Below the pieces are notes generated by a model, which was given only the letters and a program-made list of their open reading frames with translations, searched no databases and was not told the DNA's origin. This document shows, piece after piece, positions 195 through 58,661 of a DNA stretch of 64,000 nucleotides. A program made the translations under genes and the position numbers. The stretch is from Halosolutus halophilus (GTDB taxonomy: Archaea; Halobacteriota; Halobacteria; Halobacteriales; Natrialbaceae), in assembly GCF_022869805.1 (NCBI RefSeq), contig NZ_CP094974.1, positions 496,001 to 560,000 on the forward strand, in the 5' to 3' direction. The stretch's first letter is position 1, and every line of letters starts with the position of its first letter.

Positions 195-334
195 GTTCAT
201 CTCCCACCGCGTGGATGACGTGGCCGTCGATCGTTTTGCTATGCAGTGGCTGACCTCATGCGCGTACGCACGGTACCAGCGTATCTGAACACGACTCCGC
301 GAAACGCCGATACTGTTAAATACGGCCGCGAGTA

Positions 335-55647: not shown

Positions 55648-55968
55648 ATGGACGAACTGGGCGAGGAGAGTCGAATTCCGTTGCTCAACATTGAGGAAGG
55701 CGACGTCTACGTCCTTCTCGGATTTCCGATCGCTGGGCTCCTCATCGGCGGATTCGGTGGTCTCGACGGAGCGATCTTCCCGTCCGTTCTCCTGGGTACC
55801 GTCGCGGGTGTAACGATCGTTTACGCGACACCGAGTCATCTTCCAGCGTCGTCGTGGGTACCGCGGTTCAATGGCCCGATATCCTCCTTGACGGCGTCGT
55901 ACGTCTCGCGATCGAGTCCCAATAGCCCGGTACTACCTCAGTGGGCAATTCCAAATAGCCAATTTTGA
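55648..55968 (+). pseudogene. 5' fragment of a plasmid-type membrane protein gene
   Basis: The frame begins MDELGEESRIPLLNIEEGDV and then YVLLGFPIAGLLIGGFGGLD with VLLGTVAGVTIVYATPSHLP. Two helices after an acidic start, with the end of the second helix reading V-Y-A-x-P, resemble the N-terminus of small membrane proteins found beside VirB4-like ATPases on haloarchaeal plasmids (recalled, not searched). The frame then enters sequence that belongs to a VapB-like relic on the other strand, so the gene is cut off after about 72 codons. Confidence 0.4.
55866..55925 (-). pseudogene. C-terminal fragment of a VapB-like antitoxin gene
   Basis: On the minus strand the frame gives GLLGLDRETYDAVKEDI. 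The intact VapB at 57942-58169 has GVGVLDRETYDAVKEDV. A 33-base stretch is identical between the two places (55885-55917 and 58000-58032). This is the debris of a second toxin-antitoxin cassette or a partial duplication of the one 2 kb away. Confidence 0.55.
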
Positions 55969-56007
55969 ATTAGTCTATTCCGAAATAGGCTATTCGGAAG
56001 TATTATT
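55947..56007 (+). promoter_or_regulatory. Tandem related inverted repeats and TATA box of the ATPase gene
   Basis: Repeat 1 (55947-55971) is palindromic at 10 of 12 pairs. Repeat 2 (55978-55999) has perfect 7-base arms, TTCCGAA and TTCGGAA. Read in opposite orientation the two share the pattern TTCC(A/G)AATAGCC(A/T)ATTT. A TATA-like TATTATT follows at once (56001-56007), 24-30 bases before the ATG at 56031. Two matched operator-like sites directly before the TATA box suggest tight, perhaps autoregulatory, control. Confidence 0.55.
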
Positions 56008-56030
56008 CCCCACTGGGATAACGTAAGTAT

Positions 56031-57428
56031 ATGGAGCGCTTTGTGAACCGGGAAGACGAACTCTCGCGTTTACGGGGGTGTTACAGATCCGACGCCGCCG
56101 AGATGGTTGTTATCTTCGGCCGGCGTCGTCTTGGAAAAACACAACTCGTCCAGCACTCTCTTTCCGACCGAGACGACGCCGTCGTCTACCAGGCCACGGA
56201 AACTACATCACAAATACAACTCGACGAATTCGTTACTGTCGCTGCCGACACGTTTCCCGGAATTACGGAAATAAAACAGAACTGGGAAGCCCTCTTGGGG
56301 TATCTCGGCGAGCAAGACGGTATCGTCGTCCTCGACGAATTTCCGTACCTCATCGACGCCGACGAGAGTCTTCCGTCGGTCATCCAGCGGTTGTGGGACC
56401 AGCGATTACGGAGTACCTCAGGAACGTTCGTTCTGGTTGGATCGTCAATCAGCATGATGGAAGAAGCGACTCTTTTAGGGAACAGTCCTCTGTACGGACG
56501 GTTCACGGAAAAACTTGATCTCCGTCCCCTCAACTTCTCTGCTGCACAGGAGTTCCTCCCGGACGGCTACTCTCCCGAAGAGCGGATTTTCATGTGGGGT
56601 ATCTTTGGCGGCGTCCCGTACTACCTCGACGGCGTCGATCTCAACCAGAACCTCGGGTCAGTTCTCACCCAGGAAGTGCTCTCCCAAAAGGGGTACCTCC
56701 ACAACGAACCAGAGTACGTTCTCCGGACCGAGCTCACGGACCCGAATCGGTACTTTGCGATCCTCACAGCGATTGCTGCGGGGAAGACGACATCGAACGA
56801 AATCGCCCAAGCGGTGGGAATCGACGGAAAGCAAATCTCGACGTACACCCAGAAGTTAGAACGATTGCGTCTCATCGAGCGTGAGGTCCCTCTCACCGAA
56901 GAGAAAGCGAAGTCACGCCGCGGACGCTATCGGATATTGGATCCCCTATTCCGCTTCTGCTTCCGCTTCGTCTACGGCAACGAAGATCGGTACGAACGAC
57001 TGGGCGAGGACGCCTACGAGGCAGTCATCGAACCAGAGCTTCCAGACTTCGTCAGTCAGGAATTCGAGAATCTCTGTCAGGATGCTCTTCCTAACCTGTA
57101 TCCAGAAGCGACGTTCCTCGATATCGGCCGCTGGTGGTACAAAGAACACGAGGTTGATGTCGTCGGCTTCACCACAGATGGGACGATGGTCGTGGGAGAG
57201 TGTAAGTTCACGAACGCGCCGCTCGACTACAGTGCGCTCGCCTCGCTCGAAAACCATGCTGCAGAGATCCGCTGGACTCCAAATACTGGCAACATCGACA
57301 CGGAATACGCGTTGTTCACACGCAGTGGTGCCACACAATCCGTACAAGAAGCTGTGGCCGAGCGTGATGACTTACAACTATTCGAATTGAGTGACGTTAC
57401 CAACGCGTCCGGGAACACCATCTATTGA
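56031..57428 (+). CDS. Archaeal AAA ATPase with DUF234-type nuclease-like C-terminus, 465 aa
   Basis: The N-terminal ATPase domain has FVNREDELSRLRGCYRSDAA, then Walker A FGRRRLGKT (residues 29-37) and Walker B GIVVLDEFPYL (residues 97-107, Asp102-Glu103). A winged helix follows (about 255-300, KTTSNEIAQAVGIDGKQIST). The C-terminal DUF234 region (about 310-440) contains FRFCFRFVYGNEDRYERLGE. It also has a PD-(D/E)xK-like set in EHEVDVVGF and MVVGECKFTNAPL. These ATPases are widespread in archaea, often next to toxin-antitoxin or mobile genes, and are suspected to act on nucleic acids; no role is proven. The VapBC pair lies just downstream on the opposite strand. Confidence 0.85.
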   Translation: MERFVNREDELSRLRGCYRSDAAEMVVIFGRRRLGKTQLVQHSLSDRDDAVVYQATETTSQIQLDEFVTVAADTFPGITEIKQNWEALLGYLGEQDGIVVLDEFPYLIDADESLPSVIQRLWDQRLRSTSGTFVLVGSSISMMEEATLLGNSPLYGRFTEKLDLRPLNFSAAQEFLPDGYSPEERIFMWGIFGGVPYYLDGVDLNQNLGSVLTQEVLSQKGYLHNEPEYVLRTELTDPNRYFAILTAIAAGKTTSNEIAQAVGIDGKQISTYTQKLERLRLIEREVPLTEEKAKSRRGRYRILDPLFRFCFRFVYGNEDRYERLGEDAYEAVIEPELPDFVSQEFENLCQDALPNLYPEATFLDIGRWWYKEHEVDVVGFTTDGTMVVGECKFTNAPLDYSALASLENHAAEIRWTPNTGNIDTEYALFTRSGATQSVQEAVAERDDLQLFELSDVTNASGNTIY

Positions 57429-57544: not shown

Positions 57545-57955
57545 TCAAAAGGTCGTCCAATCGACGACAGTGACGTCGTCCATCCGATCGAAGTGGTCCA
57601 CGTTCGCAGTGAGCACCGAGAGCTGTTCGACCATTGCCGTCGCCCCGATGTAGACGTCATGGAGATCATGAAGTGGCGTGCCTGGCTGTTGTAACTCGCT
57701 GATGATGTCGGCGGCAGCGGTCGCGACCGCGCGATCGACCTCGAGGATTTCGAACCGTGCGAGGAGCCGTTCGAGATCCTCGAGTGCGTCCTGCCGTGTC
57801 GCACTGTCCGTGTATCGCTTGTTTACGCCGAGGCGCAGTTCGGTGACTGTGACCGTACTGATCGCGTGGCGTCCCTCATCGTCAAGCCTGGCGACCCGAT
57901 CGGCGACCCCGCCGCGGTCGATATCGACGAGCACCGACGTATCACAGAGTTTCAT
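57545..57955 (-). CDS. vapC: VapC toxin, PIN-domain ribonuclease, 136 aa
   Basis: This PIN domain begins MKLCDTSVLVDI, with the first catalytic Asp at residue 5. It carries ISTVTVTELRLGV (acidic residue in the second position of the site), HDLHDVYIGATAMVEQL (third Asp) and LTANVDHFDR (fourth). These are the four acidic metal ligands of VapC ribonucleases. The start codon lies within the end of vapB (overlap 14 bases), the usual cassette order antitoxin then toxin. The ATG at 57955 is chosen over an in-frame ATG 21 bases upstream because homologues begin directly at M-x-x-x-D-T-S. The toxin would cleave RNA when the antitoxin is lost. Confidence 0.92.
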   Translation of the reverse strand: MKLCDTSVLVDIDRGGVADRVARLDDEGRHAISTVTVTELRLGVNKRYTDSATRQDALEDLERLLARFEILEVDRAVATAAADIISELQQPGTPLHDLHDVYIGATAMVEQLSVLTANVDHFDRMDDVTVVDWTTF

Positions 57956-58169
57956 CGTCGAGGTCCTCGAGCGCACCGCGACTCAACTGTCCGACATCTT
58001 CCTTGACGGCGTCGTACGTCTCGCGATCGAGTACGCCCACGCCCGTGACGTCGGCGAGTTGGCGACGCTCTTCGAGGTGGTCTCTAATGACGTCGCTGAA
58101 ACTGCGATCTCCCTTCTCGCGTTTGAGTTCGCGATAAACGTCGTCGGAGATCGCGATGTTCTTGCTCAT
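57942..58169 (-). CDS. vapB: VapB-type antitoxin, 75 aa
   Basis: The N-terminal part MSKNIAISDDVYRELKREKG followed by RSFSDVIRDHLEERRQL is a ribbon-helix-helix or DUF217-type antitoxin fold, typical of archaeal VapB. The C-terminus VLDRETYDAVKEDVGQLSRG should wrap the toxin. It overlaps vapC by 14 bases. A 16-base near-palindrome (58177-58192) stands immediately upstream of the ATG at 58169 and is probably its own operator. The same C-terminal segment occurs as a relic at 55866-55925. Confidence 0.9.
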   Translation of the reverse strand: MSKNIAISDDVYRELKREKGDRSFSDVIRDHLEERRQLADVTGVGVLDRETYDAVKEDVGQLSRGALEDLDDETL

Positions 58170-58176
58170 ATAGTAT

Positions 58177-58192
58177 GTATGGGTACTCATAC
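58177..58192 (-). promoter_or_regulatory. Palindrome upstream of vapBC
   Basis: GTATG-GGTACT-CATAC has perfect 5-base arms and a nearly symmetric centre. It ends 8 bases before the vapB start, where autoregulation of toxin-antitoxin operons usually takes place. Confidence 0.5.
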
Positions 58193-58257
58193 GCAAAAGC
58201 GTTTCGTGGAGCTTGTCGATCCAGCAGGATACGAGCGACGATACCAGCGAGTAGTGG

Positions 58258-58661
58258 TTACGGATTCGTGACGCGATCACTCGGCCAGGCGGTGATCTCC
58301 GGGAGGCCGCCGACGATCGCCGCGATGAGGAGCACCGGTGAGAGCAATGCCACCACTAGTGCGACGAGATGTGGGAGGCGTGTCTGTGCGACTCCGGTCC
58401 GTGTGCGCAACTGGGCTGCGCCCGTAAATACCAGCGCCGAGGAAGTACAGGATCGCAGCGGCGATGCTCGCGTCAGTGCGTGCCCGGACGAACGGTCGAT
58501 CGAGCGTGTAGTGGATGGCGAAGAGATCGGCCCACGGGGAGTTGTGGATCGCGTACAGCTGAGTCTCGTAGCCCGGGACGATGTGGTGGATGTCGGGCGT
58601 GAGCCCCCAGAGGCCGCCAGCGGCGACGAGCCACAGCGGCCACCACGGCGAGAGCCGCGGG
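58258..58661 (-). pseudogene. Truncated, frameshifted copy of the type II membrane protein (20881-21324)
   Basis: On the minus strand WWPLWLVAAGGLWGLTPDIH and YETQLYAIHNSPWADLFAIH match the gene at 20.9 kb. After LYFLGAGIY the frame shifts near 58420, and RLPHLVALVVALLSPVLLIA then IVGGLPEITAW continue in the other frame to 58258. The first 27 or so codons of the intact gene are missing, and the sequence runs straight into the 3' end of the EATQ microprotein gene. It cannot give the full membrane protein. Confidence 0.7.

Follow-up and report, generated by a model that had tools for sequence, protein, structure and literature searches.

Autoregulatory operators are already known as a kind. The operators of restriction C-proteins, of BrxR/CapW and of toxin-antitoxin systems are bound by a separate small regulator, ORC/Cdc6 and DnaA are self-regulated initiators that act on iterons, and MalT is a STAND protein acting on direct repeats, an activator with separate targets and no nuclease. 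PDC-S27, a phage-defence candidate of PADLOC, consists of an ATPase fused to a PD-(D/E)XK domain; the available part of the report that lists it counts 3503 in archaea and 4562 in bacteria and states that most such candidates await validation (PMC12988326). In the literature searched, which left subscription journals and preprints outside its scope, we found no mechanism for PDC-S27, no mention of PF03008, and, under DUF234, PF03008, PDC-S27 and repeats or autoregulation, no description of the array reported here. Some of the DUF234 matches were false ones to DUF2341 or DUF2342, and PMC1913061, as far as its available part goes, concerns DUF1703.

We analyzed a 64,000-nucleotide stretch of the Halosolutus halophilus genome (contig NZ_CP094974.1 of assembly GCF_022869805.1, positions 496,001 to 560,000), referred to below as the window, in which the 61 bases at 55947-56007, when read directly, hold repeats that run up to the TATA box of an ATPase gene. 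An initial annotation had described two inverted repeats abutting that TATA box. Their sequence and coordinates were borne out (TTCCAAATAGCC at 55949-55960 and, inverted, GGCTATTCGGAA at 55988-55999, whose reverse complement is TTCCGAATAGCC), as was their placement, with the TATA element TATTATT directly after the array at 56001-56007. A repeat search resolved three copies of an 11-bp near-palindrome, AATAG-N-CTATT, with start-to-start spacings of 15 and 15.

55954-55964, + strand: array unit 1, AATAGCCAATT, a near-palindrome and member of the direct-repeat family with spacing 15
55969-55979, + strand: array unit 2, ATTAGTCTATT, which together with unit 3 gives the exact two-unit match in the scan of the genome itself
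55984-55994, + strand: array unit 3, AATAGGCTATT, a perfect 11-bp palindrome with a central G
55995-56007, + strand: core promoter, CGGAA at the BRE position followed by GTATTATT (TATA), a block kept in orthologues

The same 61 bases can alternatively be read as one inverted pair with 25-nt arms, 1 nt apart and 80% identical. We prefer a single tandem array, since it is the 15-bp step that recurs in orthologues, and this particular inverted pair does not. The repeats of the initial annotation are real, but its two-repeat architecture was a misreading: two inverted repeats are how a row of palindromes looks. An outer inverted repeat (arms at 55934-55949 and 56005-56020) was absent from orthologues by eye and was treated as chance. 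The 15-bp self-match score of the upstream region was 17, which was reached in 0 of 5000 mononucleotide shuffles of 110 nt, whether lag 15 alone or all lags from 5 to 40 were considered, and this excludes a chance origin of the array. The ATG of the ATPase gene is at 56031, placing the core promoter approximately 24 to 30 nt 5' of it; the gene is therefore probably leaderless.

The features of the gene product are as follows.

56031-57428, + strand: 465-residue protein with ATPase_2, winged helix-turn-helix and DUF234 regions, PDC-S27-like (Pfam and PADLOC matches)
56040-56630, + strand: ATPase_2 domain, residues 4-200 (PF01637, E = 5.2e-25)
56742-56936, + strand: winged-helix domain, residues 238-302, with helix 3 at 266-278 (AlphaFold2 model)
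56961-57215, + strand: DUF234, a predicted PD-(D/E)XK nuclease domain (PF03008, E = 3.7e-18)

Both PF01637 and PF03008 matched over the Pfam cut-off. The Walker A motif, G30-R-R-R-L-G35-K36, falls in invariant alignment columns, and D376 (57156-57158) and E390-x-K392 (57198-57206) are invariant in 30 aligned sequences. The winged helix matched MarR_2 under Pfam's cut-off (E = 2.6e-5), and in an AlphaFold2 model built from 30 sequences (pLDDT 91.8) its helices span residues 238-249, 255-262 and 266-278. The solved structures nearest to the model were PABY2304 (Z 22.3) and SSO1545 (Z 20.8), with plant NLRs, archaeal ORC2 and CED-4 coming next; model and fold matches alike give the P-loop ATPase fold with a winged helix that marks STAND and AAA+ proteins. 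Sensor repeats at the C-terminus are a further mark of STAND proteins; the C-terminus of the window protein is the predicted nuclease domain. When modelled alone (pLDDT 83.4), the C-terminal domain matched the EndoMS-type 2VLD (Z 10.8), MspJI (4F0P, Z 10.0) and AspBHI (4OC8, Z 9.9), all of which we take to be PD-(D/E)XK enzymes, and the core fold of that group was found together with its D...(E)xK residues by fold matching and alignment. The ATPase, winged-helix and PD-(D/E)XK assignments made initially are upheld by Pfam, invariant columns, model and fold matches, and the product is, as modelled, a STAND-like ATPase with a winged helix and a putative PD-(D/E)XK nuclease. It has the fusion of ATPase to PD-(D/E)XK domain that defines PDC-S27, and it matched the PADLOC models for that system (PDLC04984, E = 1.5e-43 over residues 1-397; PDLC04985, E = 1.3e-29), in output that carries no curated cut-off. 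One such gene is present in the genome, the second match being weak and 43 residues long.

A search for related loci returned 48, among which the haloarchaeal ones carry the same array at the same place, save for a few with truncated or misplaced starts. Conservation upstream of orthologues had been named as a check on the initial annotation, and nearly all orthologues of at least 68% identity carry the array in that position, so the idea withstood this check. Upstream regions were scored by ungapped self-matches at lags of 5 to 40. Of 99 distinct regions upstream of relatives, 88 had lag 15 as their single best lag; in shuffles of these regions it was among the best in 270 of 4950. In a larger set of 168 proteins, comprising the relatives, added paralogues and other groups with a usable start and upstream region, lag 15 was unique in 134 and tied in 10, lag 30 was best in 4, and 20 were without it. 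This set left out loci having no start within 8 residues of the expected place, proteins identical to a kept one, and cases with fewer than 100 nt upstream or fewer than 380 residues available. Because start codons were assigned by rule at most loci, some individual rows may be off; two loci (L016 and L026) were scored in the larger set from the wrong ORF (16 to 18% identity) and counted as lag 30 and as lacking lag 15, and lag 15 was found for both in the set of 99. Among control genes neighbouring the same loci, lag 15 was unique in 7 of 224 and tied in 10, and a lag-15 score of at least 9 was reached by 129 of the 168 family members versus 5 of the 224 controls.

Within the haloarchaea, lag 15 was unique in 105 of 113, and the arrays end a median of 35 nt before the ATG, against BRE/TATA. 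Loci from a wider Halobacteriota search had it as the unique best in 5 of 22, tied in 5 and not at all in 12. A haloarchaeal clade near 40% identity that seemed free of arrays retains about two units, with lag 15 leading (mean 6.6 versus 3.6 for the next lag, 10 sequences). Palindromy calculated gene by gene exceeded 95% of column shuffles in 54 of 102 haloarchaeal arrays and in 12 of 22 from bacteria or viral contigs.

The initial annotation had also noted VapB debris and an intact VapBC pair beside the gene, and both are there, the pair downstream of the gene and the debris upstream of the array.

55885-55917, - strand: vapB fragment, a 33-nt exact copy of vapB DNA at 58000-58032, in the same orientation
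57545-57976, - strand: vapC-like PIN gene (Pfam PIN)
57942-58280, - strand: vapB-like antitoxin gene (Pfam VAPB_antitox)

These neighbours look incidental to the ATPase gene, because they lie outside the array-gene unit and the flanks of orthologues are mostly unshared. The two 33-nt direct copies of vapB DNA bracket the array, the ATPase gene and vapC in the window; they could be a recombination scar or mark an insertion that took place beside vapB.

Flanks of approximately 5 kb were compared for 630 pairs of loci from clade A, which comprises members of at least 68% identity with the unit AATAG-N-CTATT. Pairwise homology begins a median of 75 nt before the ATG, approximately where the array starts, and stops near the stop codon, and only 20 of the 630 pairs share another flank stretch over 200 bp. 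Array, core promoter and ORF thus form a conserved cassette in mostly unrelated places, which fits horizontal transfer of a one-gene system. The selfish or defence role initially proposed for the gene agrees with this cassette-like distribution and with the PDC-S27 model.

Arrays also occur without an intact gene. The exact clade-A pattern is present in 31 of 125 family genomes, in which a reversed control gave 0 matches, and nine of its sites lack an intact gene. Six of these nine are remnants or frameshifted copies (G018, G021, G024, G049, G086 and G112); the other three have no remnant, two of them keeping the core promoter (G057 and G108:C29) and one not (G071:C1). By eye, two remnant-less clade-A arrays (L207, 344-370, and L211, 1501-1540) adjoin TnpB-like insertions. 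At a further locus (L221, 1500-1700), a relic clade-A array with its core promoter lies in the opposite direction approximately 140 bp before a different, 40%-identical family member. The pattern of clade B (approximately 55 to 60% identity, AGTAYSRTACT) was found in 25 of the 125 genomes, with seven sites at which no gene was known; three are N-terminal remnants (L378, L384 and L385), and four have no convincing remnant (L370, L374, L383 and L386). No recurring gene was found among the neighbours of the gene-less clade-B arrays; by eye, the four lie near housekeeping-like genes, one of them beside an apparent glutamine synthetase. We read gene-less arrays as probable relics, and they may be landing sites.

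Alternatively, the array could be the recognition element of a selfish cassette: the ATPase-nuclease would bind or cleave copies of its array carried by incoming DNA (exclusion or target immunity) or use the array for mobility, promoter control being secondary. Such a reading would account for a conserved unit of array, promoter and ORF in mostly unrelated contexts, and it is consistent with the frequency of orphan arrays and broken copies, the ORC/TnsC/MuB-like ATPase fold and the intact predicted nuclease active site. However, terminal repeats or a target duplication were not seen as a rule, the arrays are at one end only, and they sit at the core promoter, a placement that transfer alone would not require. 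In addition, neither the clade-A nor the clade-C array pattern was found in IMG/VR. We consider this explanation unlikely.

The letters of the unit differ among groups, clade C having GAAATCNYGATTTC and others AACTACGATAGTTTG, GACTATTATAGTCC or AAATCNCGATTA. Median unit similarity is at least 0.79 at protein identities of at least 70% and 0.40 to 0.48 at identities of 25 to 60%. For paralogues in the same genome, unit similarity was below 0.6 in 25 of 29 pairs, and the remaining four were two same-clade pairs (0.73 and 0.96) and two borderline ones (0.60 and 0.64); among 1176 pairs of clade-A orthologues, 2% fell below 0.6. The spacing is constant, and each clade has a unit sequence of its own. 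When the H. halophilus genome was scanned with the two-unit array, allowing up to 3 mismatches, no site was found other than that at the ATPase gene. As in an autoregulated operator, the sites lie at the gene's own core promoter and are absent elsewhere in the genome, an absence that speaks against a regulon. These results bear on the alternative that the array is the site of a separate host regulator of many genes, with the ATPase as one target only. The arrays do sit where any repressor would, and binding by the product's own winged helix is deduced, both of which leave room for such a regulator. It is, however, difficult to reconcile with the lack of a second genomic site, with units that track the ATPase clade and are unlike among paralogues within a genome, and with a spacing, in place of a sequence, that is kept across domains; we regard it as quite improbable.

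With respect to the protein that reads these letters, helix 3 of the winged helix is clade-specific by eye. For mutual information between residue and clade, the helix-3 window (265-275) ranked 4 to 8 of 455 eleven-residue windows, and windows near 353-358 and 158 ranked alongside it. When window identity was compared with unit similarity after removal of overall identity, the winged helix was not singled out, and residues 149-172 came first. It is suggestive of binding of the ATPase to its own promoter array that the unit follows the clade, that helix 3 is clade-specific, that the array travels with the gene and that the genome holds no second copy.

The 15-bp spacing also occurs in Bacillota, Pseudomonadota, Fusobacteriota, Bacteroidota and Rhodothermota, and lag 15 was unique in 22 of 30 bacterial relatives. 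Among 16 plasmid-borne relatives from named organisms (2 of them archaeal), it was uniquely best in nine, those of Rhodothermus marinus, Mesorhizobium huakuii, Cetobacterium somerae, Fusobacteria bacterium ZRK30, Rhizobium leguminosarum, Parabacteroides distasonis, Bacteroides fragilis, a Vibrio and Halobacterium salinarum; in Methanocaldococcus jannaschii it was one point behind lag 6, in Cupriavidus it shared a six-way tie, and five were without it. A Pfam scan of ten plasmid relatives found that seven pass the DUF234 cut-off. Five of these are unique at lag 15, and the other two are M. jannaschii, near lag 15, and Bacteroides uniformis pBUN1 (L323), which scores best at lag 16 instead of 15 although it has DUF234; the three under the cut-off are all without lag 15. 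The array-bearing member on R. marinus pRMAR01 (L316) lies approximately 1.4 kb downstream of csm5 in a type III-A CRISPR locus. A protein profile found relatives on 3 viral contigs (30 to 31% identity), with lag 15 unique in 2 and tied in 1.

Other groups depart from this spacing. Lag 15 leads in one methanogen group (4 sequences), and lags 17 and 12 are on top in another (5 sequences). In related PDC-S01 ATPases from the same bacterial order, with starts chosen by rule, lag 15 was best in 0 of 30. By eye, several PDC-S01 promoters (among L334-L363) have inverted arms straddling the -10 element or start, such as TCGGCTAA ... TTAGCCGA in L334 and L337, with no common direct-repeat lag. A gammaproteobacterial PDC-S27 subfamily lacks lag 15 in 25 of 29 rows; it scores high with the PDC-S27 model (581 bits for L313, for example), and its DUF234 matches lie at the cut-off, below it or nowhere. 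Upstream direct repeats of 53-55 bp scoring at least 9 were present in 14 of 30 rows (L287-L314, L327 and L329), a count made without a shuffle control in rows that include one 15-bp member (L301) and four plasmid loci. The 53-55 bp repeats of gammaproteobacterial and other PDC-S27 members are often long inverted arms. Given these repeats, the principle of private upstream repeats may hold for the whole PDC-S27 family, with a spacing specific to each subfamily.

Of the 25 rows from bacteria and viral contigs, 15 have an array that begins no more than 13 nt from where a -10-like element ends, as judged with a loose consensus; protein bound at such a position would block transcription. This placement bears on a MalT-like activator array, through which the STAND ATPase would activate its own promoter. 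The fold matches include a chain titled for the maltose system, and the position of the haloarchaeal arrays, upstream of TATA, is one that activators use as well; a start at or near the end of the -10 element, in contrast, is a rare position for an activator, and we hold this reading to be highly improbable. The palindromic units could fold, but action of the array through RNA or a leader structure is scarcely credible: haloarchaeal arrays lie upstream of the TATA box of apparently leaderless genes, so that they should not be transcribed with the gene, and the conserved feature is a 15-bp direct periodicity.

Taken together, these comparisons make it likely that the gene of a PDC-S27-type ATPase-nuclease is preceded here by an autoregulatory operator array private to it. 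Autorepression is proposed because the sites are at the core promoter, the units are palindromic, the product has a DNA-binding domain and the sequences are private. Each 15-bp step would comprise an 11- to 14-bp palindrome and a spacer, most likely bound by a pair of winged helices of the gene's own product, and neighbouring protomers would stack along the DNA every 15 bp via the AAA+/STAND domain. A filled array would cover BRE/TATA in haloarchaea and the region at or just after the -10 element in Bacillota, and the gene would therefore stay repressed until occupancy of the array falls. Fixed protomer-protomer contacts would be the simplest explanation for a 15-bp step that stays the same in archaea and bacteria. 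Binding by the product itself, its stacking, the repression and a possible tie to infection are what we infer.

A bolder extension, which we think unlikely, would make the array the sensor of a one-gene immune system. ATP-loaded, inactive ATPase-nuclease would be stacked on its own 15-bp array, and invaders that strip, copy or compete for array DNA would release it, derepressing the gene and arming the nuclease; the constant step with changing letters would be a private address code, common to archaea and bacteria, that stops coexisting copies from triggering one another. A fixed-spacing, clade-specific cis array names the likely DNA ligand of PDC-S27 and yields a prediction for the spacing of the protein along DNA. 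It is also a simple marker for PDC-S27 members and relics, and it opens autorepression, orthogonality and induction by infection to testing. If the proposal is true, archaea and bacteria would share an operator that is conserved in geometry and not in sequence, which is rare.

With regard to known systems, the window protein is like PDC-S27 of PADLOC in model match and domain order. The best-scoring PDC-S27 members among the sequences compared are gammaproteobacterial with 53-55 bp repeats, whereas the family of the window has a 15-bp step, and the available part of PMC12988326 does not mention regulatory or upstream DNA. The archaeal AAA+ ATPases PABY2304 (2QEN) and SSO1545 (2FNA) likewise combine an ATPase with a winged helix (rmsd 3.1 and 3.5, approximately 290 residues aligned), but they have approximately 350 residues versus the 465 of the window protein, and the alignments end at residue 312-313, short of the nuclease part. 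ORC/Cdc6 and DnaA share with it an AAA+ ATPase with a C-terminal DNA-binding domain and arrays of sites (ORC2 1W5T, Z 14.4); unlike these, it has a nuclease domain, and its array is confined to the core promoter. MalT and other STAND regulators are similar in placing a STAND ATPase on repeated DNA sites, and MalT differs in site geometry, in its separate targets, in being an activator and in having no nuclease. The operators of C-proteins, BrxR/CapW and toxin-antitoxin systems are likewise private and palindromic and keep a harmful system quiet. In contrast to these, the DNA-binding domain is part of the effector in the window, and the letters vary at a fixed spacing. What is new here, as far as could be tested, is a fixed geometry with changing letters before an effector that has its own DNA-binding domain.
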